DNA from: Tetracentron sinense
Taxonomy: Eukaryota > Streptophyta > Magnoliopsida > Trochodendrales > Trochodendraceae
Reading direction: 5' to 3'
DNA: 64,000 bases
Assembly: GCA_015143295.1 (NCBI GenBank)
Contig: CM026556.1
Span: 20,150,547-20,214,546 of the forward strand
Part shown: one piece after another, positions 6,198 through 56,597 of the stretch
How the letters are laid out: each line of letters begins with the position of its first letter
How positions within the stretch are numbered: position 1 is the first letter of the stretch
Made by a program: the position numbers and the translations under genes
Notes under the pieces: model-generated
Database searches by the model: none
What the model was told of the DNA's origin: nothing
The model's input: the letters and a program-made list of their open reading frames with translations, nothing else

Positions 6198-6328
6198 ATA
6201 CTGAGGCAGCCCTCGACCCGAAGCCTTGGGTCGAGGAAGAGTATATAGAGGAGAGAGAGCCGGCTATTCCATTACAGTCTCAGGCGGACCGAGACCTCGA
6301 TGCGTGGCCATACCTCGACTACTGTTGA
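6188..6328 (+). CDS. Conserved LTR acidic micro-ORF, 46 aa (S1)
   Basis: ATG at 6188, stop TGA at 6326-6328. The predicted peptide begins MSADTEAALDPK, then the core PWVEEEYIEE, and ends RDLDAWPYLDYC. It is strongly acidic, with no signal peptide or membrane segment. The same core occurs at the same place in all six LTR subtypes in this window, mostly with synonymous codon differences. A stem-loop (CTGAGTATTCCATGCTCAG) and an acceptor-like CGGCAG precede it, so the segment may be an exon rather than an independent ORF. Function unknown; similarity between subtypes is the only evidence for translation. Confidence 0.45.
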   Translation: MSADTEAALDPKPWVEEEYIEEREPAIPLQSQADRDLDAWPYLDYC

Positions 6329-6612
6329 GGGGAGAGTATGAGAGGGTCTTGTGTATTTTGATATTTTGATAGGTGGGCCTGTCCACCTTAGACTTAGACA
6401 TGTCTTGTATTTATGTTAACTTGGAATACTATTTTGGATCATCAGAAGAAATGAAAATTTGTTTACGCTTCCGTATATATGTTAGCTTCCGCGCTCTGAT
6501 TATCGTTGTTAGTACTGTATCTTATCTGATGCATTACAAGATGGTTTGATAGGTACGTAGTGTGACACCTAAAATATCCCTAAAATCCTAGGGGGTATTT
6601 CGGGGTGTTACA

Positions 6613-8803: not shown

Positions 8804-9725
8804 TGTAGACCCCCGGACCTTTTCACATTTAATGCATGGCACATTCGTTGCCATTTTGCCATTAAAGAGGTATAATTAATAAATAAGGAGGAAATTAGAA
8901 ATTCTGAACCATTAGAAATGTTCCTTTTCGAAGTACGAACCCAACGCAAGTTGAATCGTCAAAATCGGACGAACGAGTCAAAAGATATGGCGAAAATAGT
9001 CTGGACCTGCAGGCAATCGTAGCTCGGTTATGCACTAAGGACGTAGCTCGGTTATGCACTAAGGATGTAGCTCGGAAGGCGCTAAGGACGTAGCTCTGAG
9101 CACGTGCTCTGATAAGGCACAGACAATGCATGGACAACGTACTCTGATAACGTATACTTTGTGCATCCGTTGTGCAACAGACAACGTGTACGTTGTACAG
9201 CACTATGCACAACACAACGTCACAACGGGCACGTTGTACATAAGACAGTGGACAACGAGCTCAGCACTATGCACAACACAACATTACAACGGGCACGTTG
9301 TACATAAGACAACGGACAACGTGTTCAACACTGTTCACAGCACAACGTGTTCAGCACTGTTCACAGCACAATGTGTTCAGCACTGTTCACAGCCCAACGT
9401 GTTCAGCACTTGTGTTTTTGCAGAAGGTTCAGTAAGGGTATTATGGTCTTTTGGTCGGTTCACTCTTACCTTAAGAGTTTAACCCGAGCCTTTAGGGCTT
9501 CATTTCGACACTTAGAGAGATTGGGAGATAAGAAGAGAGGAGAGGGCGATTCCTAAACCTAGGGTTTCCATTTTGGAGAGAAATCAAGGGGTTTGTGAAC
9601 CCACACTCAACTCAAGCCCATTTTTCTTCAAGATCAAGGCACGAGCTCGTGAGGAGGATCTCCTCAAGCTAGGGCAGCAACTCACGGTCGTTTTTGGAAG
9701 GGGATTTCTTCCTCACTTGATCAAG

Positions 9726-10854
9726 GTCGGTACTTCTTACTACCCTCCTAGTTATAGTTCATCTTTTCCCTTTACTCTCTTGATTGTCTTTCATTTACAC
9801 ATGTGCTATGAGATGGATGGTTATGAACGGTGAATGGAGGTGGATGTTGGCGAATGGATGCCGTGTGGATGATGTGATGAATGAATGGAAAAGGGCATTG
9901 TACTAATAATGAACATACAAGTGTGATGTGAGTAAACTCACCTAGAAAAGCATGATTTAGGTTTAAACGAATAATGAATAATGAACACACCATGTTTGAT
10001 GAAATGCCAAGGTGAATAAAATGAGTTGTAAATTAGGAAATGCATGCCTAATAAATTCCGAATGTTGCTAGGGCCTATGATAGTGTGTTTTCTTGCTTTC
10101 CCTAAATGATATGAATATTACATTGCTCAATCATTGATATTATATGTGTTGTGAAATTACCCAAATGTCATATTTAAATTTAAATGCAAGTATGTACACG
10201 GTTCCCACGAGCATGGCATGCATGACATGATTTATCGAGGTTTTCAAGAACATGGTTAGAGGTGGGCCATATCCTACGATATGTTTTACCTCGCTTTTCA
10301 CAAGAAAACAAGAACCAACATTCCACGAGGGGTCTCCCCTCACTCACAAGTGCATATCATGAAGAAGGGCCTCCATTCCCTCGCAAGTACATGCATATCA
10401 TGAAGAAGGGTCTCCCTTCCTTCGCAAGTGCATTGCATAAAGAAGGGTCTCCCTTCCCTCTCAAGGCATCTCACAAGCGCATCTCACAAGTACATCTTAC
10501 AAGTGTATCTCACAAGTTACATGATCACAAGCAAGCACGCATGACATGCATGACATGCATGACATGACACGACATACAAGAATCAAGCAAGATAGACAAG
10601 ACAAGCTTTCAAGTACGAAAAGATATTTTAAGTCAAGTCAAGTGCAGGATGTTTTCAAGAGGTTGTATCGGCTTTCTACGAAATACAAGCATGATTATAA
10701 ATTGCTTTACTTCCTTGTATGATATGAATTGTTTCCGTCTACCATATATGAATTGCTCCTGATTTATGTATTGCCATTTTTATGCTATAATTGTTGGTTA
10801 GTATTTAGTACCCGCTGAGTATTCCATGCTCAGCTGTACTTCTTATGTCGGCAG
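9726..10854 (+). other. Putative LTR leader intron, T1
   Basis: Donor-like CAAG|GTCGGTAC at 9725/9726 (GTCAGTAC in the 3' LTR) and acceptor-like TGTCGGCAG ending at 10854. In the 3' LTR the acceptor region reads GTCAGCTGG instead. Inferred from conservation across LTR subtypes. Confidence 0.4.
10323..10465 (+). repeat. Hairpin tandem repeats in T1 leader
   Basis: Four related units, each with a short perfect hairpin: GAGGGGTCTCCCCTC first, then GAAGGGTCTCCCTTC in later units, spaced by CACAAGTGCAT-type linkers. The corresponding 3' LTR array is at about 17829-17970. Confidence 0.85.
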
Positions 10855-10964
10855 GTTCTGAGGGAGCTGCTGCTCCATTTGATGTTTGTGCTCCTGGTCC
10901 ATGGGTTGAAGAGGAGTACGTCGAGGAGCCTTTGGAGGAACCTCCAGTAGAGGGTTACCATTAG
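10845..10964 (+). CDS. Conserved LTR acidic micro-ORF, 39 aa (T1 5' LTR)
   Basis: ATG at 10845, stop TAG at 10962-10964. The peptide starts MSAGSEGAAAPFDVC, has the core GPWVEEEYVEEPLEEPP and ends VEGYH. The ATG overlaps the acceptor-like CGGCAG, so either an independent short ORF in the long R-U5 leader or an exon is possible. It would be a uORF upstream of gag on unspliced RNA. The S3 solo LTR encodes nearly the same peptide. Function unknown. Confidence 0.5.
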   Translation: MSAGSEGAAAPFDVCAPGPWVEEEYVEEPLEEPPVEGYH

Positions 10965-11268
10965 GTGGGTGTAGATTCTGAGTGGATTAGCTGTGGGTGA
11001 GATGAGAGTTATACATTCATGTATTTTGGCGGGTCTGTCCGCACTTTCTTTTGGATTCCTTTTGTGTAAACTTGGATTCGTATATACATAGAGGCTTGTT
11101 TAGACTTCCGCTGTGCTATGTTAGAGTATGTTTCCGCTGTTTATATCCTCTATTGTATATGCTCTATGGGTTTTTGCAGGTTGGTTTGTCAAGCAAGTCA
11201 TGTAAGCCATGATTAGTCGTCCAAAGTTCACTCTAACTCCTAGGGTGGACTTTGGGTCGGGACAGAAG

Positions 11269-16291: not shown

Positions 16292-18758
16292 TGTAGAGCC
16301 CTGGACCTTTTCACATTTAATGCATGGCACTTTCATTGCCATTTTGCCATTAAAGAGGTATAATTAATAAATAAGGAGGAAATTGGAAATTCTGAAATGT
16401 GAAAAATGTTCCTTTTCGAAGTACGAACCCAACACAAGTTGAATCGTCAAAATCGGACGAACGAGTCAAAAGATATGGCCAAAACAGTCTGGACCTGTAG
16501 GCAATCGTAGCTCGGTTATGCACTAAGGACGTAGCTCGGTTATGCACTAAGGACGAAGCTCGGAAGGCGCTAAGGACGTAGCTCTGAGCACATGCTCTGA
16601 TAAGGCACAGACAACGCATGGACAATGTACTCTGATAACGTATACGTTGTGCATCCGTTGTGCAACAGACAACGTGTACGTTGTACAGCACTATGCACAA
16701 CACAACGGGCACGTTGTACATAAGACAGCGGACAACGAGCTCAGCACTATGCACAACACAATGTGACAACGGGCACGTTGTACATAAGACAATGGACAAC
16801 GTGTTCAACACTGTTCATAGCACAACGTGTTCAGCACTGTTCACAGCACAACGTGTTCAGCACTGTTCACAGCACAACGTGTTCAGCACTGTTCACAGCC
16901 CAACGTGTTCAGCACTCGTGTTTTTGCAAAAGGTTCAGTAAGGGTATTATGGTCTTTTGGTCGGTTCACTCTTACCTTAAGAGTTTAACCCGAGCCTTTA
17001 GGGCTTCATTTCGACACTTAGAGAGATTGGGAGATAAGAAGAGAGGAGAGGGCGATTCCTAAACCTAGGGTTTCCATTTTGGAGAGAAATCAAGGGGTTT
17101 GTGAACCCACACTCAACTCAAGCCCATTTTTCTTCAAGATCAAGGCACGAGCTCGTGAGGAGCATCTCCTCAAGCTAGGGCAGCAACTCACGGTCATTTT
17201 TGGAAGGGGATTTCTTCCTCACTTGATCAAGGTCAGTACTTCTTACTACCCTCCTAGTTATAGTTCATCTTTTCCCTTTACTCTCTTGATTTTCTTTCAT
17301 TTACACGTGCTATGAGATGGATGGTTATGAACGGTGAATGGAGGTGGATGTTGGCGAATGGATGCCGTGTGGATGATGTGATGAATGAATGGAAAAGGGC
17401 ATTGTACTAATAATGAACATACAAGTGTGATGTGAGTAAACTCACCTAGAAAAGCATGATTTAGGTTTAAACGAATAATGAATAATGAACACACCATGTT
17501 TGATGAAATGCCAAGGTGAATAAAATGAGTTGTAAATTAGGAAATGCATGCCTAATAAATTCTGAATGTTGCTAGGGCCTATGATAGTGTGTTTTCTTGC
17601 TTTCCCTAAATGATATGAATATTACATTGCTCAATCATTGATATTATATGTGTTGTGAAATTACCCAAATGTCATATTTAAATTTAAATGCAAGTATGTA
17701 CACGGTTCCCACGAGCACGGCATGCATGACATGATTTATCGAGGTTTTCAAGAACATGGTTAGAGGTGGGACATATCCTACGATATGTTTTACCTCGCTT
17801 TTCACAAGAAAACAAGAACCAACATTCCACGAGGGGTCTCCCCTCACTCACAAGTGCATATCATGAAGAAGGGCCTCCCTTACCTCGCAAGTACATGCAT
17901 ATCATGAAGAAGGGTCTCCCTTCCCTCACAAGTGCATTGCATAAAGAAGGGTCTCCCTTCCCTCTCAAGGCATCTCACAAGCGCATCTCACAAGTACATC
18001 TTACAAGTGTATCTCACAAGTTACATGATCACAAGCAAGCACGCATGACATGCATGACATGACACGACATACAAGAATCAAGCAAGATAGACAAGACAAG
18101 CTTTCAAGTACGAAAAGATATTTTAAGTCAAGTCAAGTGCACGATGTTTTCAAGAGGTTGTATCGGCTTTCTACGAAATACAAGCATGATTATAAATTGC
18201 TTTACTTCCTTGTATGATATGAATTGTTTCCGTCTACCATATATGAATTGCTCCTGATTTATGTATTGCCATTTTATGCTATAATTGTTGGTTAGTATTT
18301 AGTACCCGCTGAGTATTCCATGCTCAGCCGTACTTCTTATGTCAGCTGGTTCTGAGGGAGCTGCTGCTTCATTTGATGTTTGTGCTCCTGGTCCATGGGT
18401 GGAAGAGGAGTACGTCGAGGAGCCTTTGGAGGAACCTCTAGTAGAGGGTTACCATTAGGTGGGTGTAGATTCTGAGTGGATTAGCTGTGGGTGAGATGAG
18501 AGTTATACATTCATGTATTTTGGCGGGTCTGTCCGCACTTTCTTTTGGATTCCATTTGTGTAAACTTGGATTCGTATATACATAGAGGCTTGTTTAGACT
18601 TCCACTGTGCTATGTTAGAGTATGTTTCCGCTGTTTATATCCTCTATTGTATATGCTCTGTGGGTTTTTTCAGGTTGGTTTGTCAAGCAAGTCATGTAAG
18701 CCATGATTAGTCGTCCAAAGTTCACTCTAACTCCTAGGGTAGGTTTTGGGTTGCGACA
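16292..18758 (+). repeat. T1 3' LTR
   Basis: TGTAGAGCCC ... GGGTTGCGACA. Same layout as the 5' LTR, with five 26-bp units around 16800-16918 where the 5' copy has four. Its micro-ORF is at 18339-18458. Confidence 0.97.
18339..18458 (+). CDS. Conserved LTR acidic micro-ORF, 39 aa (T1 3' LTR)
   Basis: ATG at 18339, stop TAG at 18456-18458. Relative to the 5' copy the first codons changed from TCG GCA to TCA GCT, both synonymous (MSAG kept), although the change removes the CGGCAG acceptor-like word. One proline became serine. Length and the PWVEEEY core are kept. Confidence 0.45.
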   Translation: MSAGSEGAAASFDVCAPGPWVEEEYVEEPLEEPLVEGYH

Positions 18759-21034: not shown

Positions 21035-21180
21035 GTGCACGAGCCCCTCTTGACATATGTGATCAGGGTCCTTGGATAGAGGAGGACTACGGGGAGGAAG
21101 AACCGTATGAGGATCTAGTAGTTGAGCCTCAGGCGGAGGCGAGAGACTTAGACCATTGGCCCCACGGGGGTGACTATTGA
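21025..21180 (+). CDS. Conserved LTR acidic micro-ORF, 51 aa (S2)
   Basis: ATG at 21025, stop TGA at 21178-21180. The peptide starts MSAGARAPLDICDQG, has the core PWIEEDYGEEEP and ends in ARDLDHWPHGGDY. The RDLD-x-WP tail is shared with S1 (RDLDAWP). Preceded by CTGAGTATTCCAAGCTCAG and the CGGCAG acceptor-like site. Function unknown. Confidence 0.5.
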   Translation: MSAGARAPLDICDQGPWIEEDYGEEEPYEDLVVEPQAEARDLDHWPHGGDY

Positions 21181-21474
21181 TCGAGAAAGTGTTGGGTCTT
21201 ATGTATTTTGATATTTTGATAGGTGGGCCTGTCCACCTTAGACTTAGGCGTGTTTTGTATTTATGTTAACTTGGAATACTACATTTTGGATCATTATAAA
21301 GAAAAGAAAAATTTAGTTTTCGTTCCCGTAAATTATGTTTAGCTTCCGCGCTCTAATTATCATTGTTTAGTACTGTGTTTATCTTGTGCATTACAGGATG
21401 GTTTGGCAGGTACGAAGTGTCACATCTAAAATATCCCTAAACTCCTAGGGGGTATTTTGGGGCGTGACAGGCTT

Positions 21475-23754: not shown

Positions 23755-23871
23755 CTAAAAGGTGTAGCCACCCAAGTCTCTGGCTCCCTCATCAGAAGGC
23801 TCACCTTCACCTCCTTCATCTGCGTATGTTTCCTCAACCCACGGCTCCGCCGTGTACTCCTGCTCTAAACC
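23755..23871 (-). other. LTR acidic peptide segment, 38 codons (M)
   Basis: Minus-strand open segment from the acceptor-like CTTCGCAG|GT down to TAG (23755-23757). It encodes GLEQEYTAEPWVEETYADEG and ends ARDLGGYTF. There is no in-frame ATG at the position used in S1, S2, S3 and T1, which favours an exon over an independent ORF. An 8-bp stem-loop CTGAGTACCTTTGTACTCAG precedes it, a compensated version of the family stem-loop. Confidence 0.45.
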
Positions 23872-24994
23872 TGCGAAGACAAAGTCCGGCTGAGTACAAA
23901 GGTACTCAGTGTATATAAAATCCAACCAACAATAATAATATACCTACACTTAGTCAGAAACATATCCAATAACATAATCAGAGTGCGGAAGAACGTGTGC
24001 GCATATACATCATATCATCACCTTGACTCATGTACTTGTGAGAATCTTAGACTTGGAAGACAATACACTTATGAGTTGCTTATGCTTATGAGACCACGTG
24101 CTTGTGAGATGCTTATGCTTATGCGCTTATTCAGATCATACAATGATGTGACATGCCGTTCTTGGCGGATACGGACCATGTCTAAGAATCAAATGGTTGA
24201 CATGCCGTTCTTGGTGGAGATGGACCATGCCTATGAATCAAATGGTTGACATGCCGTTCTTGGCGGATACGGACCATGCCTATGAATCAAATGTAATTGA
24301 CATGCCGTTCTTGGCGGATACGGACCATGCCATGCTTATGCTTATTCAGAATGTCATACGTATGCCATGCTCATGCTTGTGGTCCACATGTGTGACTTGT
24401 GAGACTCTTATCTTAACATACACGTGCATATGTGCTTAAGTGTCGAAATTAACATTCGAGTTGGTAATTGCTTAGATTCCGATCTCCCACCATGGAAAGT
24501 CCACTATACTGTCCCATACCAAATAGTTAGAGAATTCCCGACTATCAATTTCCATGCAAATAATTAGACATACTTAACAAATAATTCACATATACATATC
24601 TTATCATAATTCATATCGCAATTCATAATCAATTTACCACCATTTCATAAGAGTATAATAGCATTTATCCTTTCAAGCATTTTCACAAACACCTTGTGTA
24701 CGCATAATATGAATCCATTTCCCTTCTATATTTTCAAGCATTCATTAAACCATAATTCATCCATACAATCAATTCACTATTCACATCCACCTATTAATCC
24801 CATCCTCCATACATTTCCCATCCTCCATATATTCTATCCACATCCAATCCACATTTCCATCCACATTTCCATCAATAATTAGCTTACTTCATAGAAAATT
24901 TGGGGAAAAATGCATTTAATCTCTATTCTATAATTTCTATCAAATTAATATTCACAAAACATTAAAATAGAGTTGATTAGGATAGTATATCGAC
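23871..24994 (-). other. Putative LTR leader intron, M
   Basis: On the minus strand, donor-like CTAAG|GTCGATATAC begins at 24994 and acceptor-like CTTCGCAG ends at 23871 (1124 bp). Inferred from conservation with the other LTRs. Confidence 0.4.
24150..24340 (-). repeat. Tandem array of 49-51 bp units, 4 copies (M)
   Basis: Plus-strand starts at 24150, 24199, 24248 and 24299 with GACATGCCGTTCTTGG. Each unit contains CCGT..ACGG and flanking CATG words. It lies inside the putative intron. The short plus-strand frames here are artefacts. Confidence 0.9.
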
Positions 24995-25442: not shown

Positions 25443-26237
25443 TCTATTTCGACTCATTTTACTGCTTTGGCCATAACTTTTGACTCGTTCGTCGGATTTT
25501 GACGATTCAACTTGCGTTGGATTCGTCTTTTGAAAACGAACATTTCTGGCATTTTAGAATTTCTAAATTCCACATAATTAATGGACTAAATTGTCCCCAA
25601 AGTTGACTGATCTGCAATTCCATTAGATAAAACCCACCATTGACTTGGCCTAAACTCAAAATAAGGAAAAACATTAAACATGAACTTCGAAGAGGATTCC
25701 AACACCTTTCTAATGGTTCAAGAATCACTCAATTCCAGTAAACGGTGCCAAAACTAGAGCTTCCTAAAGTTTAGGGTGTGATATGACATCCCTCTGTTAC
25801 AAGTTTGATTAAGCCTAGTTCACACCACACCAAATAAATATATAATACAATAAACATCAAAACATCATAAGGACTATAATACCCCTAATACAATGAAGTA
25901 AAAACATGAAAAAGATTCGGGGTCTCTACACCATCTAACTGTAGTTAAAATCCCTTAACTATGGTTACCTCCCCTACCAAGTCCCTCACGACCTAGGTAA
26001 GCCTCTCCAATCATACCCTTAGGACTAAACCCTAGGTGAACACTAGTTAAACCCTTAGTTAATCTTAGGAATCAAAACCATGTCCTAAACCCTTAGCCGT
26101 AGGTGACCCTAGCAAAACCCATGGCCTATAAGGCCTTACCCCATTATCTAGGCCCCTTAAAGCCCAAAAAATGCCCTAGGACAACCCCCTATAACCCAAG
26201 TGTGCAGGGCCCAGCCAATTAAAAAACCAATCTCAGA

Positions 26238-26303
26238 ATGTCGGTAGAAGTTCTATCGACATTTATTTTTACCCTGGCTTCGTGTTGTCGGTAAAACTTC
26301 TAC
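26238..26303 (+). repeat. Palindrome pair in C LTR (5' copy)
   Basis: An inverted repeat at 26238-26262 with arms ATGTCGGTAGAA and TTCTATCGACAT around one base, followed about 25 bp later by a second one (TTGTCGGTAAAA / TTCTACCGACAA). The 3' LTR carries the cleaner versions at 42273-42297 and 42320-42344. Confidence 0.85.
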
Positions 26304-26460
26304 CGACAACTGCAAGTTCCGAGTTTCAGGCCTGCATACGCCCTGCACGCTCTACCTCCACCTCGATCTCTCCCTTCTTAACCCTCACACGACCTTACCT
26401 TGGTCCAATACCCATCTCAGCCTTCTCCTTAAACCCCATTAGGTCACTAGTGTCCTTGCC

Positions 26461-26468
26461 TATAAATC
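26461..26468 (+). promoter_or_regulatory. TATA box of C 5' LTR
   Basis: TATAAATC in TGCCTATAAATCC, repeated in the 3' LTR at 42496-42503. Confidence 0.6.
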
Positions 26469-28414
26469 CAAACATCACCCACAGTGCAAACGGGCTGCAA
26501 CTTTCCAAAGGTGAACCTCTGTTCCCAAGCTCCTAGGCTCACCCCCTCTTCAACCTTCTGGTCGTGATCCCAGGCCTCCCTGGAGCCTGCCTCAAGATTC
26601 CCCAGCATCTGCAGCACCGCCGGAGTGTGTCACCATCGTGCACAGGCCTCTTCCATTTTGGTAGAAAACAGAGTATAGGGTAGGGACATCCCCTACCCAC
26701 TTTTACTTCTGCTCTACTCATCTTATGAGCCCCTGGTCATCTCCAGGGGACTACTATTATGTTTATTGTTTTTTTTTCAATTCCAAACCCAATACAAGGG
26801 CATTCATTCATCTTATTAATAGGTGTAATGAACCCTCCACTACGGGTAGAGCACCTCCTCAAGGCTTGGCAAACCATTACAGACCCTCTGGGGGTCCCTC
26901 ACATCATGAGGAAACCCCTGGTAATCTCTGTGCACAGCCCCAGGAGCTACAGATCTAGTTTTCAGAAATACCCAGAATGGTAGTACTCTTAGTACCACCA
27001 TTCCCAAACAAACCTGTTTCGAGAATGTCGGTGAATCTTTTCCCGACGGTCTGTGTTTTGCTTGGTTTCAGCAGGTCGGTAATCCATCTACCGCCAGTTT
27101 GCTGTTTCAGGTACAGCACCTTTGCAGCTTTGTGGGGCCCACCCCTGGGGCCCACACCAATCTCAGTAGGTTCCCAGGAGTCCCCTCTACACTCGCCCAC
27201 CTTTGGTTCACCTTGGGTTACAGTCTAACCCTAGATAACAGAGGCGAAAACACTGTCATTAGTGGCGGTAATTCCATTACCGATATTAACTGTGTTTTTT
27301 GTTTTGGGCTTTTGTAGGGGCCTAGGCCTGGTAGGAGGCCACTTTAGGCCCTTCCTAGCCCCCTGGGCCCACCTTGGACTATACCAGACCCTTAACAGTG
27401 GTTAAATCCCCCTCTGGTTAACATTTAACCGCAGTTAAGCATCCCTTAACCCTACAAACTTTGGGAAATTAAACGGACATTCCTAAATATATCCTCGGAC
27501 CATAATCCTGACTTTGGCCCTCTCCCTAACCCTGGTTAGCAACCCTAACCACAGTTCGACCTCCCTTAACTATGATTAGCAACCCTAATCGTAGTTAGTT
27601 TCGGTTTACGGCCTATCGGGCCTAAAAACCAAGTCTACCGGACTTACCTCAACCTACCGGCCTCTGCCTTAGCCTACCGGGCTACAACTCACTTACCCTT
27701 TACTGTGGTTAGCAACCCTAACTGCAGTTAGTTCGGCCTAACCCCGGTTAGCAATCCTAACTCAGGCCGGATTCCTCCCTAGTGTACCGGACTACCCCAT
27801 AAGCCTACCGGGCTTCATACTATGCACTTAACCATCCTCGGTCAACCCACCCTAGTCTACCGGACTAGTCCATGTTAGCCACCCTTGGTGCACACACACA
27901 CGCCCCTAGCCTCGGCACAGGCTCACGTGCCAGAACTACCCTCGATCTGATCTCAACCTGTGAGTACGTAGGTAGCCCAACACGGGCCCGACCCCAGTTA
28001 GCTTTTCCCTTCTTAGATTAGTGTTCATTTAAAACATTTTGGCATTTTAAACAAGATTAACTTTAATTGGCTTAAACCCGGGAAGTACGGAACCGTTGTA
28101 AAATGGAAGCCTCGGGTGCCTAACACCTTCCCCGGACTTAACCGAACCCCTTACCCCGATCTCTCTCGTGGACCAAGACCTTATCTAAAACTTCGGGGGA
28201 CTTTGTAGAGCCCCAGAATTTTTCACATTTAATGCATGACACTTTCGTTGCCATTTTTCATTTAAAGAGGTATAATTAATAAATAAGGAAGAAATTGGAA
28301 ATTCCAAAATATTAGAAATGTTCGTTTTCGAAGTACGAACCCAACGCAAGTTGAATCGTCAAAATCGGATGAACGAGTCAAAAGTTATGGCCAAAATAGT
28401 TTGGACCTGCAGAC

Positions 28415-30174: not shown

Positions 30175-30284
30175 GTTCTGAGGGAGCTGCTGCTCCATTT
30201 GATGTTTGTGCTCCTGGTCCATGGGTGGAGGAGGAGTACGTCGAGGAGCCTTTGGAGGAACCACCTGTAGAGGGTTATCAGTAG
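30165..30284 (+). CDS. Conserved LTR acidic micro-ORF, 39 aa (S3)
   Basis: ATG at 30165, stop TAG at 30282-30284. Differs from the T1 peptide only at the last residue (VEGYQ against VEGYH) despite several codon differences. Core GPWVEEEYVEEP. Preceded by CTGAGTATTCCATGCTCAG. Confidence 0.5.
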   Translation: MSAGSEGAAAPFDVCAPGPWVEEEYVEEPLEEPPVEGYQ

Positions 30285-32466: not shown

Positions 32467-33978
32467 ATGAGCCGACCTATGACTCGTTCTCTGACAGCGA
32501 TTCTCGCAGAAGCAGCATCTGCCGACGCAGTCTTGATGGAAATACCAATCACAGAGGTACTCCCTGGGACAGTCCGATCAGAGAACAGCTCCTACATAGT
32601 ACAATCGGAAAGCAGTACAGGATCGATAGCAAAACCTGCAGATCAGCACCAGTGGACCGAAGAACCCTCCACCCGGATCCCAACCGAAGAACCAGCCGAG
32701 CGACCTACACCTGAGCCTCGCCATTCTCCCTTCATCATACCTAATCCCACACCCGCAACAGGCGGAGGAGAGGAGTATGACTAGTACGAAGAGCAGCCAA
32801 AGATCTCACACGTCCACCAGGACCAACCGTCATCCTTAGATCCAACCCCTTCCTTACAAGACGAGATCAAGCAGATGAAAGAGGAGATGAGAAGAATGAA
32901 AGTTACATCTACCAATACAAGTCTATCACTGGAAGACTTAATCTTTTCATCAGGAGATGCTGTTCCCGTAGGTTTCAAGGTCCCAGACTTGGATAAATAT
33001 GATGGCTCGGGCTGTCCAAAACAACACTTGCAGTTATACTTGGGGGACATGCTCCAACATAATAAAAACTAGCCCTTGTTCATCCAGTACTTCCAGAAGA
33101 GTCTGAAGGGGGCAGCCCTTACATGGTGGATGTCGATGGACAAACAGAAAGTCAAGACCTGACAGGATGCCATGGATAGCTTCATAGAGCAGTACTCCTT
33201 CAACCAGGAGCTCCACCCTCAGAGGAGCCAGCTCGAACAGCTAAGCCAGCGCAACAACGAGTCATTTCTGGAGTACGCCACCCGTTGGAGGGAAATGGCA
33301 GCAAAGATCCCAACTCCTCTCCCTAAGGAGGAATTGGCAAGCATGTTCATAGGCACCCTGAAGCAGCCCCACTCTACACTCATGGTGACCTTACCGGTAG
33401 TGGACTTCAGCACTATCATCAGGACAGGTGCTCGTATCGAGACTGCTATCAAGAGTGGGGCCATTCATTCCAGTCTAGGACTTGATCCCTCCAAAGTCAC
33501 GGTACTCATCAGATTACCAGCTCCAGTAGCTCAGCAGCAGTCAGTTAGCAGGAATACCCGGTCAGCCCGACCAGTCCAAGGGCAAAATCGTCCTCCCAGA
33601 AACTTTACCCCTCTTCCATATACTCTCAGCCAGTTATTGGAATTCCTCACCAAGCAGGGCCTTCTCAAGTTGAGAGGTCCTACACCTCTTCTACCTCCAG
33701 ACAAGCAAGACAAGAACTATAATGTTGATCATCACTGCGCCTTTCACAGAGGCCCAGGCCATGCCACAGATTATTGCATAGGCTTGAAGTGTGCAATCCA
33801 AGATCTCTTGGATGAGGGAAGGGTTGAGCTGGCTACCAGCAACACCAGCATCAATTAGGTGCCACTACCCCCACATAACAATCAAATCAATTTTATCCAG
33901 TGGGAAGTGCCTGAGGCAGGGCAGCTAGGACCCAGCACACCCGCAGTGAGTGACGGCATCTTCAGGTCCTCTTACTGA
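32467..33978 (+). pseudogene. C gag, broken by stops
   Basis: One frame from ATG 32467 with stops at 32782 (TAG), 33070 (TAG), 33160 (TGA), 33856 (TAG) and a last TGA at about 33976-33978. The conserved gag core reads GFKVPDLDKYDGSGCPKQHL, FQKSLKGAALTWWMSMD, LSQRNNESFLEYATRWREMA. Near 33730 it has the Tat-style HHCAFHRGPGHATDYC in place of a classic zinc knuckle. The first four stops fit CAG-to-TAG or TGG-to-TGA. Gag would form the particle shell. Confidence 0.9.
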
Positions 33979-35537: not shown

Positions 35538-35923
35538 CCACTAATCCATTGGTGGACTGAGGCTCTCACCATCGAGGCGAGCCAGGGCCAGGGCAAGCAT
35601 AGTGTAGGACAGGTTGGTCTGAGACAGCAGTGAACCAGCATTACCCTTCTCCTCTATCTACTTCTCTTTCGCTCCCGTTTGTAAAAACCAAAAGTCAGGC
35701 CACTGTCGGCCTCTTTTTGTTTGAGTCTTTTTGTAACAAATCGTTTTGCTAATCAGATTGTTTTGACTTAAAAATCATGTTTTAAAAAAAAAAAAAAAAC
35801 AACATATTTCATAACGGCTGATGATGAAATCACACGGACTCTTCCCCTGGATGGCCTAGTGTCCTGAAGTCAACAAATCATCATCATCAAAGCATGCTAA
35901 ACTGAAGCTAATTGGTTTGCCAG
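35538..35923 (+). other. C noncoding spacer, probable intron end
   Basis: No open frame joins protease to RT here. It contains a run of 16 A near 35785-35800. The right end has branch-like GCTAAAC and GCTAATTGG followed by TTTGCCAG, and the RT frame is open from the next base (35924, EITSDRA). Ogre elements are known for an intron between protease and RT; I could not pick a convincing donor. Confidence 0.5.
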
Positions 35924-37170
35924 GAAATTACCTCTGACAGGGCTACCCCTCAAACCCTCCTTGAACTCTCTGAAGCAGAGGATGACTCAGAACAGGAAGA
36001 GGATTCGCCTCAGGAAATTCTGGACCTCCTTGAGCACAGTGAAGGACTTTTACAATCTAATAGGGAGGACACTGAAACAGTCAATCTGGGATCCACAGGG
36101 AACCCCCGACTAGTCAGAATCGGCACTAGCATGAACCTTCAGCGGAGAGCAGACATGATCAGTTTCCTGAGAAGCTACAGTGATATCTTTGCCTGGTCAT
36201 ATGCTGACATGCCAGGCCTAGACCCAGCATTGGTGGTACACAGACTGCCCTTGAACCCCGACGTCAGACCAGTGAAGCAGAAACTGAGACAGATGAGGCC
36301 CGAATGGTCACAGAAGGTCAAGGAAGAAGTTGAGAAGCAGATCAGCGCAGGCTTCCTGGTAGTTACAAACTACCCTGAGTGGTTGGCCAACATAGTCCCA
36401 GTACCCAAGAAGGATGTCAAGGTCCGCATGTGTATTGACTACCAGAATTTAAACAGTGCAAGCCCCAAAGACAACTTTCCTCTCCCGCACATTGACATTC
36501 TGGTTGACAATACTGCTGGGAACGAGACTCTCTCATTCATGGATAGTTTCTCCGGATACAACCAGATCAGAATGGCAGAAGAAGATATGGAGAAAACCTC
36601 CTTTATCATCCCTTGGGGCACATTCTACTACAAGGTCATGCCCTTCGGACTCAAGAATGCAGGGGCCACCTACCAGAGGTCCATGACGGCCTTATTCCAC
36701 GACATGATGCACAAGTCCACTAAAATCTACATGGATGACATGATCCTCAAATCGCCGACAGCCGAACAACACCCAGAAGACCTGAAGAGACTCTACGATA
36801 GACTCCGAGAGTACGGTCTAAGACTGAACCCGGCCAAATGCATCTTCGGAGCCTCATCAGGAAATCTCCTTGGATTCATAGTCAGCAAAAGAGGCATTGA
36901 GATCGATCCAGCTAAATCCAGAGCTATCATCGAAATACCAGCACCCCAAACTGAAAAGGAGATCCGTAGTTTCCTAGGTAGAATTCAGTACATCAATCGG
37001 TTCATTTCTCAACTAACTCTGATCTGCGAGCCGATCTTTAAACTTCTCCGAAAGAACACACCGACAATTTGGATATCAGAATACCAAGAAGCCTTTAACA
37101 GAATAAAACAATATCTTCTGAGTCCTCCAGTACTTGTGCCTCCTACACCGGGCGTCCACTGCCACTCTAC
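35924..37170 (+). pseudogene. C reverse transcriptase
   Basis: Open for over 400 codons from the probable exon start. It reads FAWSYADMPGLDP, MCIDYQNLNSASPKDNFPLP, FMDSFSGYNQIRMAEEDMEK, MPFGLKNAGATYQRSM, the intact active site IYMDDMILKS, then LGRIQYINRFI. The frame shifts by one base near 37165, just after VLVPPTPG. The catalytic residues are preserved, which fits recent inactivation. The last codons to 37234 are the wrong frame. Confidence 0.92.
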
Positions 37171-38110
37171 ATCTCTGTGCAAGAAACCTCCATGGGGTGC
37201 ATTCTGGCATAACATGACGAGATTGGCAGAATAGAGCAAGCCATCTACTATATCAGTAAGCGTCTGCTTGAGTACGAAGAGCGGTACAGCCCTCTTGAGA
37301 AGACATGTCTGGCACTGGTCTAGGTAACTTAATGTCTTCGGCACTATCTGCTTTCCTACCCGGTAATTCTGCTCTCCCGGATGGGCCCACTGAAATATCT
37401 ACTGGAAAAGTCAACCACCACCGGAAGGACTGCCCGATAGCTTATGATGTTGTCTGAATTCGACATCACGTACATAACACAGAAGTCAGTCAAGGGGCAG
37501 GTGATAGCAGATCACCTGGCCCACAGTCTGACCCAGGACTACGCATCTGTACATGATCAGTTTCCAGATGAAGCCATCCTGTATACAAAAGTGGATAAAC
37601 AGGAATACTCCGACTGAGAGTTGTATTTTGACGGAGCTGCCAACAGTCATGGGCATAGGGCAGGAGCAGTCCTGATCTCCCCTAAAGGAGCACACCTCCC
37701 CATCTCAATCAATCTGAAGTTCAGATGCTCCAACAATGAAGCAGAGTATGAGGCACGCATAGCCGGACTGAAAGAAGCCCTGGACATCGGGATTGAAGAG
37801 GTAGACATCTACGGTGACTCATCTTTGGTAATCTGTCAGGCGAATGAGTCTTGAGCCATCCGAGAAGCAAGGCTAGTCCCGTACTTAGCCTACCTTAATA
37901 TGTTAATCAGTCAATTTAGAAGAATCAGCTTCAGCTACCAGTCTAGGAACCACAACAGATTCACCGACGCACTAGCCACTCTAGCTTCAATGGTACAAAT
38001 TCCTATAGACATCATGCTCTGGCCGATAGAAATTCAACAACAAGATCAGCCTGCCTACTGCCTTTAGATCGAAGAGGTATCAGACAATAAGCCTTGGTAT
38101 GCAGACATCA
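37171..38110 (+). pseudogene. C RNase H plus archaeal-type RNase H
   Basis: After the frameshift the usual RNase H reads EQAIYYISKRLLEYEERYSP with several stops (about 37207, 37321, 37330, 37438). A second RNase H follows from 37621: YFDGAANSHGHRAGAVLISP, NNEAEYEARIAGLKEAL, VDIYGDSSLVICQ, the D-E-D pattern of the archaeal-type RNase H acquired by the Tat lineage. Stops at 37615 (TGA), 37852 (TGA) and 38065 (TAG) fit W or Q codons. Confidence 0.88.
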
Positions 38111-47099: not shown

Positions 47100-47753
47100 T
47101 GGTTTAACCTATACCTGCATAATTTCTTCGTCAAGGAGGTCGGTGACCAAAAGCGAGTCCGTAGGAACGGGATGGGCTCTAGATATCAGTTTCACTGAAT
47201 GCTCAAGCATATAATGCCTTAATTTCTTCAAAGCAAAGATAAGGGCCAGACAGACTTTTTCTATCAGTGTATATCTACATTCTGCTCCAACCAGAGTCCT
47301 GCTTAGATAGTACATGGCATTCTCTTTCCCTTGGTCGTTATGCTGAGCAAGAAGAGCTCCGAGAGATCCTTCGAGTGCTGCTATATAGAGGATAAGTGAC
47401 TTCCCTCTAATAGGACCCATGAGGACTAGTGGGTTGGTGAGATAGGTTTTGATGCTATCTAGGGCATCTTGATAAGCCTGATCGCACTAGAATGACATTC
47501 CCTTCTTCCTCAGGCAAGAAAATGGTTGGCACCTTCCGGCCAAATTGGAGATGAATCTTCGGATATAAGCGAGTCGACCCTGAAGTCCTTTCAACTCGTG
47601 AAGATTGCTTGGAGGGGGCATATCGTGAATCACCTTTATCTTAGTAGGATCAATCTTGATTCCTCTATGGCATACCATAAAACCTAGGAATTTTTCAGAT
47701 TCAACTCCGAATGCGCATTTGAGCGGGTTCATTTTAAGTTGATGCTGCTGCAA
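47100..47753 (-). pseudogene. B RT end and RNase H
   Basis: Resumes the RT at the T2 insertion: HQLKMNPLKCAFGVESEKFL, GIKIDPTKIKVIHDMPPP, LQGRLAYIRRFISNLAG. After a break near 47487 the RNase H reads LILYIAALEGSLGALLAQHN, YYLSRTLVGAECRYTLIEK, LRHYMLEHSVKLISRAHP. It is contiguous with 56603-57300 when T2 is removed. Confidence 0.88.
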
Positions 47754-47983
47754 TGTAGCACCCCGGACTTTTTCATCCTCTATGAATAGCACCTTCATAG
47801 CTAATTGGCCGTTTTCATAGTTTTCGTAGTCTAATTAATAAATAAGGGAGAAATCGGAAATTCCGAAATGTCAGAAATGTTCGTTTTCGAAAGACGGATC
47901 CAACGCAAGTTGAATCGTCGAAATCCGACGAGCGAGTAAAAAGATATGGTCAAAACAGTCCAGACATAACAGAGCACCGATCG

Positions 47984-48165
47984 CTCGGTCATTACCTGCG
48001 ATCGATCGGTCCACTACCGATCGCTCGATGGCTGTCGCACGGTTAACTTTTTTGTATGGGGAAAAATTCCAGAGAGTGTGTTTTTGACCGATCTCTCGGT
48101 CATAACACCGATCGACCGGTAAGCCACCGATCGCTCGGTCCATACCACCGATCGATCGGTCATAC
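47984..48165 (+). repeat. CGATCG palindrome array in T2 5' LTR
   Basis: About seven copies of CCGATCGCTCGG, CCGATCGATCGG or close variants (CGATCGACCGG, CGATCTCTCGG). The identical array in the 3' LTR is at 54964-55145. Confidence 0.93.
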
Positions 48166-48216
48166 GCAATTTTTCTTCATTAAGGGTGTTTAAGACTTTA
48201 AACACAACCCCTTGCC

Positions 48217-48224
48217 TATAAATA
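48217..48224 (+). promoter_or_regulatory. TATA box of T2
   Basis: TATAAATA within GCCTATAAATAGGC, 463 bp into the LTR, so U3 is about 0.5 kb and the R-U5 leader about 1.4 kb. The 3' LTR copy is at 55197-55204. Confidence 0.85.
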
Positions 48225-48429
48225 GGCTGAGTTCGTGCCTTAGGGTTTCAGAAACCCTCTGTGCCCTATCTTAGGAGATTTTGAGAGAGAGAAGAAGGAG
48301 AGGAACTACTTGTTGATCAAGCTTGTGGAAGATCAAGGTTCTTCCACTTCCCTTGGTGATTTCCAACCAAGAACTCACTGTTCTAGCTTGTTCCAGCCAT
48401 TGGGAGTCAAATCCATTGATTTCTCTAAG

Positions 48430-49179
48430 GTAGATACACTCTACTACAATCTTGCAATCCTACTAGTTACTAAGTATGATTCTTCTTATCTATGCCCTAT
48501 CTATGTGTATTGATTTTATGTATGAAAAAGGTGTGATTATATACTTGGATGAAGGTTACTATTATGATGCACTCTAAGTGTTTGATGAAATACCTCTAAG
48601 GGATTCTATGTTTAAATACGATGATTTCTCTTATTAAGTGCATATGCTCGCATGTCTCGCATGAACCGATGGTTTCCATGGATTTCTCAAAGTACAAATA
48701 AAGGTTTTTCACGAAAAGACGAATAATGAATGATTCTAAGTAACTCTATGATTTCTCTAAGATCGTTTCACAAGCTCTAAGGATCATATCGTGCTCACAA
48801 GGAAACTCTATGATAATGTTCTAAGATCGTCTCACAAGCTCCACGGATCACAATGAAATGCTCTAAGATCTCTAAGGTTATGCTCTATGGAAATGCTCTA
48901 CGGTATTGCTCTATGCTCTATGTCTCTACGGATCATAATGACTCTAAGTAACTCCATGAACTCACAAGAACTCATAAGGCTATGATTATCGATTGACTCA
49001 CACGGTTACAGTTTTGGTTTCGAATATTATCTCACATATGTTTTCATGGTTTCCATGCTTTAAGGATTGTTCGGATTTCATTCTCCATGTCTTGTATGCT
49101 CCATGCCTAACCGCTTTATTGTTCTTAGTTTGTATACACTGAGTATTCCATGCTCAGTCGATATTGTTATGATCGGCAG
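48430..49179 (+). other. Putative LTR leader intron, T2
   Basis: Donor-like CTAAG|GTAGATAC and acceptor-like GATCGGCAG, 750 bp, the shortest of the set. It contains degenerate CTCTAAGATCGT(C/T)TCACAAGCTC repeats around 48770-48890 instead of a clear hairpin array. Confidence 0.45.
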
Positions 49180-49313
49180 GTGCTCGGGTTCCATTCGATT
49201 TGTGTGGCGACGAACCTTGGGTCGAGGAAGAGTACCGTGACCCGGAGCCTTCCATGGATCACTATCATGACGATGGTGCTCTAGATAGGAGTCGTGACTT
49301 CGATTTCTGTTGA
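49179..49313 (+). other. LTR acidic peptide segment, 44 codons (T2)
   Basis: Open from the acceptor-like CGGCAG|GT to TGA at 49311-49313: GARVPFDLCGDEPWVEEEYR at the start, DRSRDFDFC at the end. An extra A (ATGATCGG) puts the local ATG out of frame and an in-frame TGA lies just upstream, so here the segment can only be translated as an exon. The 3' LTR copy is at 56159-56293. Confidence 0.45.
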
Positions 49314-49621
49314 TCGACCGACTTAGAACTTGTGTCATTTTGTTATGTGAGTGTGGGGTTTGTCCACTCCACTTTTGGGTTTCTCACACATGTATACTTG
49401 TTGGTTCTTACTTGAGCCAAGCTATAGGAGTATTCATTTTGCTTCCGCTATGTTTAGTATTTTATTTTCCGCTGTGCATTGTATTTCGTTTCCACTATGT
49501 ATATGCAGGTACTCTGACAGGTTTCCACGTGTGCCTTATGTATCATACTGGAGGTATGATACGGCGGTCACGAGTCAAAGTATCCTTAACTCCTAGGGGG
49601 TATTTTGGGTCACGACAGACT

Positions 49622-49633
49622 TGGTATCAAAGC
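49622..49633 (+). promoter_or_regulatory. T2 primer binding site
   Basis: TGGTATCAAAGC, four bases after the LTR, initiator-Met-like, identical to T1. The leader 49634-49994 is noncoding and ends with an acceptor-like GATCTCAG at 49976-49983, just before the gag ATG. Confidence 0.92.
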
Positions 49634-49994
49634 TAGTTATGTCTAATGACAGACTTAGTTAGGTCACTCAGGCTTGGTCTAAGCGGAAGTAATTCCTATG
49701 AGTTGAACTTAGAACTCAGAAGGACTCAGTTGTCTTAGGCTTGTTACCACGACATAACCGGTATCAAGTGAATCTTTAGGTTAGTGTAGGATCCTAGAAA
49801 AGATAGATGCCCAATGCAAGTGTCTTAGCTACGCTAGGGTACTCTAAGTTGTGATGGTATTCTTACGTGTATACCTTGATGTATACTAAATGCGGTGTTA
49901 GCATTTCATGATTATTGAATTGCTATATGATATGTGAGGTTTGGTATCCAAGTTAGACTCATGTTTTGCCAAATTGATCTCAGGATTTGATATC

Positions 49995-51254
49995 ATGAGA
50001 CGTGTCAATCGGGGTCGAGGTTACCATACTCGGAGGGCCGAGAGTGAAGTTCCAAGAGAAGAGGAACCGTTGTATTTCACGAATGCTATGGACTCCATAG
50101 CCGAGACTTTGGCATTGTTGGCAGCAAGGCCTATGCCTACCCCACCGTCCACGCCTGTGCCTACACCGGTGCATCACACCGCGGGGCTCGAAGCTTTTAG
50201 GAGACTGCGGCCTCCTACATTCTATGGCACTCTGGACCCCATGGTGGCCGAGTCTTGGATTATGCAGCTGGAGAAGACCTTCCGGGCTCTCCGTTGTACC
50301 GATGAGCAAAGGGTAGAATGGGCTTCCTTCGTGATGGAGGGTGAAGCCGAACACTGGTGGAGAGCTGCCCAAAGGCAGAGAGATGTTGCTAAGGCAGGTG
50401 TGCCCTGGACTTGGGCGGAGTTCTTAGAGACTTTCAGGGAACAGTACTTTCCCAGGTTTATTCGGGAACAAAAGGCGAGAGAGTTTATGCTTTTGGAGCA
50501 AGGGTCGATGAGCGTAGCCGAGTATGAGGCTAAGTTCACCGAGTTGTCTAGGTTTGCTCCGCACTTGGTGGCTACTGAAGACCTACAGGTCAGGAAGTTT
50601 GAGATGGGCTTGAAGGCTTTCATCCAAGATCGGGTGTCCATTCTCCAGGTAGAGTCTTGGAGAGAGATAGTAGGGAAGGCAAAGATCGCCGAAAAGAATG
50701 CGGAAGACTTCGTGAGAAGAAGAGACAGTGGCTTCGGGAAGAACATGTCTCGGGGTCAGACGAGTAGTTCTTCAGAGAAGAGGACTAGGACTGCACCGTA
50801 CCAGTTCTCCCAGCCGATTTCGGCTCAGAGACCTTCTTTTGCGCCTCAAGCACCGCGTCCTACAGCATCGCAAGCTACGAGGGTTATGCCTCCGGCTTCC
50901 TCCGCATCGCAGACATTTGAGGAGTGCGCCGCATGTGGTCGTCGGCATAAGACTGGAGATTGCCGAAGAATGTCAGGTGGATGCTTCCATTGTGGCGAGA
51001 TGGGCCATATGATTCGAGATTGCCCGCGCAAGCAGTCACAGTCTGGATCACAGGGAGTTCGGCCTCCAGGCAGGCAGAATTCACTTCAGGGGTCTTCATC
51101 TCAGGCCTCTAGATCCTTGCAGCCTACCCAGCAGCCTCGTCAGGCAAACCAGGGCAGAGTCTTTGCCATGACTGATAGAGACGCACAGGCATCTGATGAT
51201 GTTGTGCAAGGTACGCGCGAACTAGTCTTTGTTGAAGTTCTAATGTTGCCATGA
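49995..51254 (+). CDS. gag: T2 Gag (unspliced reading), 419 aa
   Basis: I chose ATG 49995 (MRRVNRGRGYHTRR) because it aligns with the T1 start; an upstream ATG at 49941 is in frame but unsupported. The protein has a retrotransposon Gag domain in the N-terminal half (FRRLRPPTFYGTLDPMVAES, FREQYFPRFIREQKAREFML), a Pro/Gln/Ser-rich linker, and tandem zinc knuckles CAACGRRHKTGDC (from residue 311) and CFHCGEMGHMIRDC (from 330). The unspliced message runs into the intron and stops at 51252-51254 after GTRELVFVEVLMLP. Gag would assemble the cytoplasmic particle and bind RNA. Confidence 0.93.
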   Translation: MRRVNRGRGYHTRRAESEVPREEEPLYFTNAMDSIAETLALLAARPMPTPPSTPVPTPVHHTAGLEAFRRLRPPTFYGTLDPMVAESWIMQLEKTFRALRCTDEQRVEWASFVMEGEAEHWWRAAQRQRDVAKAGVPWTWAEFLETFREQYFPRFIREQKAREFMLLEQGSMSVAEYEAKFTELSRFAPHLVATEDLQVRKFEMGLKAFIQDRVSILQVESWREIVGKAKIAEKNAEDFVRRRDSGFGKNMSRGQTSSSSEKRTRTAPYQFSQPISAQRPSFAPQAPRPTASQATRVMPPASSASQTFEECAACGRRHKTGDCRRMSGGCFHCGEMGHMIRDCPRKQSQSGSQGVRPPGRQNSLQGSSSQASRSLQPTQQPRQANQGRVFAMTDRDAQASDDVVQGTRELVFVEVLMLP

Positions 51255-51310
51255 TATGTTTGTATCTATATGTACAGTTGTGTTATAACTGGGATGATTC
51301 AAATTCTCAG
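51211..51310 (+). other. 100-bp intron between T2 gag and pol
   Basis: GTGCAAG|GTACGC at 51210/51211 and AATTCTCAG|GTTCG at 51310/51311. Possible branch sites TTCTAAT (51239) and GTTATAAC. Removing it joins DDVVQ to GSLLVNE in one frame, matching the uninterrupted [12 protein letters not shown] of T1 at exactly the same place. Left in, Gag stops within it and pol is out of frame by one. Confidence 0.85.
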
Positions 51311-54300: not shown

Positions 54301-54642
54301 AGGTACGTGGGACCATTTGAGATCGTCACAAGGGTTGGTGAGGTTGCTTACAGGGTAGCACTACCGCCTCACATGGCAGCGGTCCATAATGTATTTCACG
54401 TCTCTATGCTTAGAAAATACATTTCGGATCCGTCTCACGTCATCGCTCTTGATCCTGTTGAGATTCGAGAGGATCTTACGTTGGTTGAGCAACCAGTTCA
54501 GATTCTGGATCGTCGAGATCAAGTGTTGCGAACCAAGACTATCCCTTTAGTCCTAGTGAAGTGGCAGCATCATTCCAAGGAAGAGGCTACATGGGAGCGA
54601 GAAGCCGAAGTACGAGAAAAGTACCCCCATTTATTTGTTTAA
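51311..54642 (+). CDS. pol: T2 Pol (second exon of Gag-Pol), intact
   Basis: Joined to 49995-51210 it gives 1515 residues (4548 nt with stop). Protease DTG at residue 420, RT FVDD at 738-741 with [20 protein letters not shown] upstream, RNase H ([27 protein letters not shown]), integrase with the HHCC region ([12 protein letters not shown] .. [11 protein letters not shown]), core [25 protein letters not shown], and a chromodomain-like tail [18 protein letters not shown] before TAA. All catalytic residues are present. Chromodomain tails guide integration to heterochromatin in related elements. There is no independent start; translation depends on splicing. Confidence 0.95.
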
Positions 54643-54689: not shown

Positions 54690-54733
54690 ATCGTCCAAAT
54701 TTCGGGGACGAAATTTTTGTAAGGGGGGGAGAA
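54690..54733 (+). promoter_or_regulatory. T2 pre-PPT inverted repeat and polypurine tract
   Basis: CGTCCAAATTTCGGGGACG (54692-54710) forms a short inverted repeat; AATTTCGGGGACGAAATT is a common pre-PPT motif in chromoviruses. The polypurine tract AAGGGGGGGAGAA (54721-54733) abuts the LTR. Confidence 0.9.
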
Positions 54734-56597
54734 TGTAGCACCCCGGACTTTTTCATCCTTAATGAATAGCACCTTCATAGCTAATTGGCCGTTTTCATAG
54801 TTTTCGTAGTCTAATTAATAAATAAGGGAGAAATCGGAAATTCCGAAATGTCAGAAATGTTCGTTTTCGAAAGACGGATCCAACGCAAGTTGAATCGTCG
54901 AAATCCGACGAGCGAGTAAAAAGATATGGTCAAAACAGTCCAGACATAACAGAGCACCGATCGCTCGGTCATTACCTGCGATCGATCGGTCCACTACCGA
55001 TCGCTCGATGGCTGTCGCACGGTTAACTTTTTTGTATGGGGAAAAATTCCAGAGAGTGTGTTTTTGACCGATCTCTCGGTCATAACACCGATCGACCGGT
55101 AAGCCACCGATCGCTCGGTCCATACCACCGATCGATCGGTCATACGCAATTTTTCTTCATTAAGGGTGTTTAAGACTTTAAACACAACCCCTTGCCTATA
55201 AATAGGCTGAGTTCGTGCCTTAGGGTTTCAGAAACCCTCTGTGCCCTATCTTAGGAGATTTTGAGAGAGAGAAGAAGGAGAGGAACTACTTGTTGATCAA
55301 GCTTGTGGAAGATCAAGGTTCTTCCACTTCCCTTGGTGATTTCCAACCAAGAACTCACTGTTCTAGCTTGTTCCAGCCATTGGGAGTCAAATCCATTGAT
55401 TTCTCTAAGGTAGATACACTCTACTACAGTCTTGCAATCCTACTAGTTACTAAGTATGATTCTTCTTATCTATGCCCTATCTATGTGTATTGATTTTATG
55501 TATGAAAAAGGTGTGATTATATACTTGGATGAAGGTTACTATTATGATGCACTCTAAGTATTTGATGAAATACCTCTAAGGGATTCTATGTTTAAATACG
55601 ATGATTTCTCTTATTAAGTGCATATGCTCGCATGTCTCGCATGAACCGATGGTTTCCATGGATTTCTCAAAGTACAAATAAAGGTTTTTCACGAAAAGAC
55701 GAATAATGAATGATTCTAAGTAACTCTATGATTTCTCTAAGATCGTTTCACAAGCTCTAAGGATCATACCGTGCTCACAAGGAAACTCTATGATAATGTT
55801 CTAAGATCGTCTCACAAGCTCCACGGATCACAATGAAATGCTCTAAGATCTCTAAGGTTATGCTCTATGGAAATGCTCTACGGTATTGCTCTATGCTCTA
55901 TGTCTCTACGGATCATAATGACTCTAAGTAACTCCATGAACTCACAAGAACTCATAAGGCTATGATTATCGATTGACTCACACGGTTACAGTTTTGGTTT
56001 CGAATATTATCTCACATATGTTTTCACGGTTTCCATGCTTTAAGTATTGTTCGGATTTCATTCTCCATGTCTTGTATGCTCCATGCCTAACCGCTTTATT
56101 GTTCTTAGTTTGTATACACTGAGTATTCCATGCTCAGTCGATATTGTTATGATCGGCAGGTGCTCGGGTTCCATTCGATTTGTGTGGCGACGAACCTTGG
56201 GTCGAGGAAGAGTACCGTGACCCGGAGCCTTCCATGGATCACTATCATGACGATGGTGCTCTAGATAGGAGTCGTGACTTCGATTTCTGTTGATCGACCG
56301 ACTTAGAACTTGTGTCATTTTGTTATGTGAGTGTGGGGTTTGTCCACTCCACTTTTGGGTTTCTCACACATGTATACTTGTTGGTTCTTACTTGAGCCAA
56401 GCTATAGGAGTATTCATTTTGCTTCCGCTATGTTTAGTATTTTATTTTCCGCTGTGCATTGTATTTCGTTTCCGCTATGTATATGCAGGTACTCTGACAG
56501 GTTTCCACGTGTGCCTTATGTATCATACTAGAGGTATGATACGGCGGTCACGAGTCAAAGTATCCTTAACTCCTAGGGGGTATTTTGGGTCGCGACA
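54734..56597 (+). repeat. T2 3' LTR
   Basis: 1864 bp, TGTAGCACCCC ... GGTCGCGACA. The ten differences from the 5' LTR include a two-base change near LTR position 27 and single changes spread along the rest; most are transitions. Confidence 0.98.

Follow-up and report, generated by a model that had tools for sequence, protein, structure and literature searches.

Plant long terminal repeats (LTRs) are mostly treated as regulatory DNA, and the locus described here raises the question of whether they can also carry a protein-coding exon. In a 64-kb stretch of Tetracentron sinense DNA (the window, from which all counts below are taken), there are eight LTR copies representing six lineages (S1, T1, S2, S3, T2 and M). 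T1 and T2 give two LTRs each, and S1, S2, S3 and M are counted as LTRs on similarity. As originally predicted, an open segment inside the LTR encodes an acidic peptide with the core PW(V/I)EE(E/D/T)Y in all eight copies, and a six-frame regular-expression search of the 64 kb finds this core at these eight places and no other. Counted from the S/F-A-G/D codons, the segments are 38 (T1, S3), 40 (M), 45 (S1), 46 (T2) and 50 (S2) residues long. The longer consensus proposed along with the core proved too generous. Specifically, P(F/L)D(V/I/L)C is found in T1, S2, S3 and T2 but not in S1 or M, while an RDLD-like end is found in S1, S2, T2 (RDFD) and M (RDLG) but not in T1 or S3. The residues P, W, E, E and Y, together with another E, do not vary among the six aligned sequences.

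T2 is the youngest full element and has long gag and pol frames. Its C-terminal pol piece gives a Pfam Chromo match of 28.2 bits (cut-off 25.1), placing a chromodomain at the integrase C-terminus, a chromovirus feature. Excerpts of PMC3605345 describe non-CRM chromovirus clades in which the chromodomain and ORF end lie upstream of the polypurine tract, and T1 and T2 share this arrangement. No open frame runs from pol into the 3' LTR in either T1 or T2, the pol frame stopping before the LTR in both; in T2 the stop occupies 54640-54642 and the LTR starts at 54732. "Tekay" is used here as the label of the original prediction rather than as a placement in a reverse transcriptase tree. The LTR lengths, 1.9-2.5 kb, come near the 2.6-3.0 kb given for complete Beta Tekay LTRs in the same excerpts (PMC3605345). 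The window also contains a 2.3 kb direct duplication (25928-28203 and 41963-44262, 93% identity) separate from the studied LTRs, an open frame at 35912-37231 that matches the Pfam reverse transcriptase model RVT_1 (104 bits), and two open frames, 33163-33855 (+) and 58437-59159 (-), which match retrotransposon gag and, weakly and below the cut-off, gag-asp protease and probably belong to other elements. The coordinates of the features discussed here are collected in the table.

Table. Positions of the LTRs, candidate peptide exons, hairpins and splice-like or promoter-like motifs in the window.
Feature	Position	Strand	Remark
T1 5' LTR	8804..11264	+	~96% identity to T1 3' LTR
T1 3' LTR	16292-18758	+	
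T2 5' LTR	47752..49617	+	99.46% identity to T2 3' LTR
T2 3' LTR	54732-56597	+	
Candidate peptide exon, S1	6198..6328	+	A, not G, after CAG
Candidate peptide exon and stop, T1 5' LTR	10855..10964	+	
Candidate peptide exon, T1 3' LTR	18349..18458	+	CAG altered to CTG
Candidate peptide exon, S2	21035..21180	+	
Candidate peptide exon, M	23755..23870	-	open stretch before core without ATG
Candidate peptide exon, S3	30175..30284	+	
Candidate peptide exon, T2 5' LTR	49180..49313	+	in-frame stop directly before; no in-frame ATG before core
Candidate peptide exon, T2 3' LTR	56160..56293	+	
Hairpin before acceptor-like CAG, T1 5' LTR	10815..10833	+	
Hairpin, T2 5' LTR	49139..49157	+	
Hairpin, M	23890..23909	-	4-base loop, top pair changed
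TATA-like CTATAAATAGG, T2 5' LTR	48216..48226	+	
TATA-like CTATAAATAGG, M	25209	-	
5' splice-site-like AAG/GTAGAT, T2	48430..48435	+	
Other donor-like motifs	begin 4981, 9726, 17232, 19794, 28921, 55410	+	
Donor-like motif, M	begins 24994	-	weak score 1.2
Acceptor-like TCTCAG and gag ATG, T2	49978..49997	+	AG ends 49983; ATG 49995
Acceptor-like site, T1 counterpart	before gag ATG 11625		
Intron-like GT...AG insert, T2 gag/protease boundary	51211..51310	+	100 nt; phase 1; absent in T1

The differences among the copies indicate that the segment is most likely protein-coding. Synonymous sites are saturated in 12 of the 21 pairs, so the comparison of T1 with S3 and the core carry the weight of the coding test. 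The T1 5' copy differs from S3 by five synonymous changes and one nonsynonymous change over 26.7 and 87.3 sites, respectively, giving a dN/dS of 0.05, and the T1 3' copy by six and three, giving 0.13. Values for the remaining seven pairs without saturation are 0.16-0.48. Pooled over the seven codons of the core, with one copy per lineage and T1's 3' LTR omitted, pS is 0.92 and pN is 0.076. Furthermore, the segment is among the most conserved stretches in the T1-S3 comparison (95% identity, versus 68% in the stretch before and 82% in the stretch after), and both scanning windows that lie mainly over it have every change in one codon position. These changes fall at sense third positions, and antisense coding was rejected on this ground.

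The gaps between the copies also respect the frame. In DNA alignments blind to codons, the segment has 30 internal gaps, of which 21 have a length divisible by three and nine do not; in the flanks the figure is 49 of 201. These counts use one copy per lineage over 15 pairs that are not independent of one another. Codon phase is kept at ≥97% of aligned sites in 13 of the 15 lineage pairs; the alignment loses it in S1-S3 (same phase 0.19) and T2-M (0.73). The purifying selection on protein that had been predicted thus stands among the copies in the window, on a dN/dS that is 0.05 for the cleanest of the 21 pairs and 0.13-0.48 for the eight further pairs without saturation, on changes confined to one codon position and on mostly frame-keeping gaps, but it is not uniform, the S1 and S2 segments being strongly diverged although in frame. 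Judged from these alignments, protein-level constraint is well supported.

S1 and S2 are otherwise close relatives, and their divergence is concentrated over the segment: 55 of 131 sites differ there, versus 8 of 132 in the flanks (4/60 before and 4/72 after). The divergent block starts at about the acceptor-like CAG described below and ends just after the stop (6198-6345 versus 21035-21197); 10 of the 15 sites directly after the stop differ, and the 4/72 flank count starts beyond them. The two lineages are variable elsewhere too, with up to 11 of 30 sites differing upstream in the putative intron and 9 of 27 further 3', compared with up to 18 of 30 in scanning windows over the segment. The contrast is strongest against the immediate flanks. 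Synonymous divergence between the two segments is also high (pS 0.70), and a swap with another lineage is therefore a simpler account than diversifying selection alone.

At the start of the segment there is a CAG in seven of the eight copies, replaced by CTG in T1's 3' LTR, and the base that follows it is G except in S1. The CAG ends 19-22 nt behind a conserved hairpin, which each of the six lineages shows in its minimum-energy fold, with z from -1.5 (T2) to -3.9 (S3). Covariation is modest: one pair of the upper stem is changed on both sides, which shuffles match in 63 of 500 cases, and two pairs of a longer stem are so changed, matched in 17 of 500. M does not retain the lower stem, and T2 does not have it in the same register. 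By eye, A residues of the stem lie about 20-40 nt before the acceptor-like CAG and could serve as a candidate branch point. A conserved hairpin adjoining the segment is what might be expected if selection acted on RNA or DNA only, through structure, packaging or splicing, with the reading frame incidental; this we consider extremely unlikely, given the third-position bias, the frame-keeping gaps, the low dN/dS and a search of 47752-51400 that returned no Rfam match. A 19-base match to the hairpin in a bacterial MAG was taken as chance.

How would such a segment be translated? The original prediction offered an upstream ORF (uORF), an accessory peptide and a spliced exon, and the last fits best, with a conserved CAG behind a hairpin and with a core that no in-frame ATG precedes in T2 or M. 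An in-frame start codon is present in four of the six lineages: ATG-TCG-GCA stands directly before the segment in S1, S2, T1 and S3. These four starts suggest a short ORF that is initiated at an AUG, either on the LTR leader or on a shorter RNA with its 5' end within the LTR, and whose start was lost in T2 and M. We judge this unlikely. In T2, whose two LTRs are 99.46% identical, an in-frame stop precedes the segment and no in-frame ATG precedes the core, and in M the whole open stretch before the core is without ATG. A simple uORF thus fits badly and was rejected as a general account; of the two elements, T2 is the youngest full one in the window. Furthermore, the preceding stretch holds 4.4-5.2 ATG per 100 nt, so scanning ribosomes would rarely arrive at the segment.

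The leader of the LTR offers splice-like sites of its own. In T2 and M, the TATA-like CTATAAATAGG is located about 450-465 bases from the LTR start, and none was seen in the LTRs of the other four lineages. A 5' splice-site-like motif, AAG/GTNRRTAY, occurs once in each of the eight LTR copies from which it was derived and nowhere else in the window. The stretch from an anchor that we chose near the TATA-like position to this motif, here called exon 1, is ATG-poor, with 3 ATG in 1571 nt over the six lineages versus 9.5 expected from dinucleotide shuffles (pooled P 0.008; T2 alone reaches P <0.05 as a single lineage). After the motif, the ATG density is 4.4-5.2 per 100 nt and GC drops from 0.44-0.49 to 0.36-0.41. 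Before the gag ATG, T1 and T2 have in common GTTAGACTCATG and an acceptor-like TCTCAG; if exon 1 were spliced to this acceptor, no ATG would precede that of gag in either element, and the remainder of the LTR resembles a spliced leader.

A donor-like and an acceptor-like site in the same LTR could also mean that exon 1 is joined to the segment within the 5' LTR, with translation starting at a non-AUG codon. We regard this as very unlikely, as the junction puts a TAA in frame directly before the segment in four of the six lineages (S1, S2, T2 and M), on which account exon 1 was rejected as coding sequence joined to it. Near the LTR start, a block of about 110 bases (47857-48000 and counterparts, TTCGAAAGACGAATCCAACGCAAGTTGAATCGTC...) hardly differs between the lineages, M included. 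It was rejected as a second coding segment, with a T2 stop in the sole mostly open frame and no synonymous pattern by eye; it is probably regulatory, possibly a promoter or structural element.

The partner that would be joined to the LTR exon we infer from the frames upstream. Because the 3' LTR follows gag-pol, its copy of the exon, which begins in phase 1, could be joined to a donor located in either gene. In T2, an intron-like insert interrupts the gag/protease boundary; its T content is 0.39 and its GC content 0.36, versus 0.25 and 0.50 in the flanks, and without it the frame reads DDVVQGSLLV, restoring the frame that T1 has insert-free. The insert's donor at 51211 has the top score in the T2 gag frame, narrowly (4.6 versus 4.5 for the next). 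It lies in phase 1, and could thus link Gag either to pol or, with the frame kept, to the LTR exon (DDVVQGARVPFDLC). T1 lacks this donor at the end of gag, so it is not common to both elements. Four phase-1 GT sites in pol are aligned between T1 and T2 and score >0.5 in both; on inspection they lie in conserved protein motifs, and they were rejected as diagnostic.

Among 61 Gag relatives, many of them cut short or of other families, none contains the peptide motif. The relative P0002 ends in VVQGT and a short unrelated tail, an ending that would be consistent with an intron located where T2 has its insert. Several plant Gag proteins (P0008, P0017 and others) end or switch sequence at the VVxG gag/protease boundary, and P0008, from Quercus suber, ends in the acidic DENENTDT.

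The peptide itself has no homologue in the protein database, plant proteins included, at 0.55-1.75 times its length, and a padded 150-residue query likewise returned none there. No match was found in Pfam with five of the six lineages as queries (all except S3), and no homologue was found in the PDB or among viral contigs. Structure prediction gives no fold (pLDDT 67, pTM 0.19). The string PWVEEE appears in no paper of the open-licence PMC set searched; among the titles and abstract openings listed from that set, none names a coding exon in Tekay LTRs, and no such exon is mentioned in the excerpts of PMC6317226, PMC7730604, PMC3605345 and PMC2832683. According to an excerpt of PMC7730604, Tekay elements are absent from the sunflower expressed set, and RNA evidence may therefore be difficult to obtain.

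Taken together, the LTR sequences lead us to favour, tentatively, a short coding exon resident in the LTR that is spliced, from the 3' LTR, onto a Gag or Pol product as a C-terminal tail. In the 5' LTR, the exon would lie downstream of the promoter, within the leader that is spliced out from the exon 1 donor AAG/GTNRRTAY to the acceptor before the gag ATG, and Gag would be translated from the RNA with its leader spliced. In the 3' LTR, the same CAG acceptor would take a phase-1 donor inside gag or pol, yielding a minority mRNA whose product would be Gag, or a shortened Gag-Pol, ending in an acidic and probably unstructured tail. The hairpin would limit splicing into the exon and so leave most RNA genomic. 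The role of the tail may be to adjust particle assembly, the ratio of Gag to Gag-Pol or the export of unspliced RNA, and any choice among these would be a guess.

Proteins coded within or overlapping an LTR are familiar from animal retroviruses, as accessory proteins such as MMTV Sag and lentiviral Nef, whose ORFs have their own ATG; the likeness drawn here is by description only. Among plant chromoviruses, excerpts of PMC3059260 report that the polyprotein of CRM group A extends into the 3' LTR, likewise a protein-coding sequence inside an LTR read from the 3' copy; there, however, it is a direct continuation of pol encoding the CR motif, whereas here pol stops before the LTR and, in T2, the segment is set about 1.4 kb into the LTR. 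In the Copia elements BARE1 and EVADE, which are not chromoviruses, a short Gag arises by splicing, as excerpts of PMC3735527 and PMC12786077 describe, and a splice near the gag end cuts the product short just past the junction, which favours Gag over Gag-Pol. A splice-site-like donor at the end of gag is present in T2 (51211) and absent in T1. In BARE1 a 104-nt intron and a frameshift directly follow gag, whereas the end proposed here is a selected LTR exon.

A third known system suggests another partner. In Caenorhabditis elegans, the Cer1 protein CERV is produced from a spliced mRNA and exports genomic RNA (PMC10309623, in excerpt); it is an LTR retrotransposon protein from a multi-exon spliced mRNA, partly sharing the polyprotein frame. 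By analogy with CERV or retroviral Rev, the segment could form the final exon of an independent regulator encoded over several exons, the first coding one being located in another part of the element. The CAG behind the hairpin would serve such a regulator equally, and if the leader is spliced, unspliced RNA would have to be exported, the task for which Cer1 uses its spliced-mRNA protein (PMC10309623, same excerpt). In neither the LTR nor the leader did we recognise another conserved coding segment, the function is predicted by analogy, and such a regulator seems improbable.

The tailed Gag or Pol product remains the reading that we prefer. A broader version, which we hold to be possible but doubtful, would have a branch of plant chromoviruses carry a hidden, alternatively spliced LTR exon, repressed by a hairpin over the branch-point region and giving rise, from the 3' LTR, to a tailed Gag or to a regulator like Rev or CERV; the exon would be swapped or diversified between families as a cassette with edges near the splice acceptor and the stop codon. 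If an LTR exon of this kind is real, these retrotransposons would make an unannotated protein form, solo LTRs would carry coding DNA, and splicing of the leader and the 3' LTR would help to balance Gag, Gag-Pol and genomic RNA.
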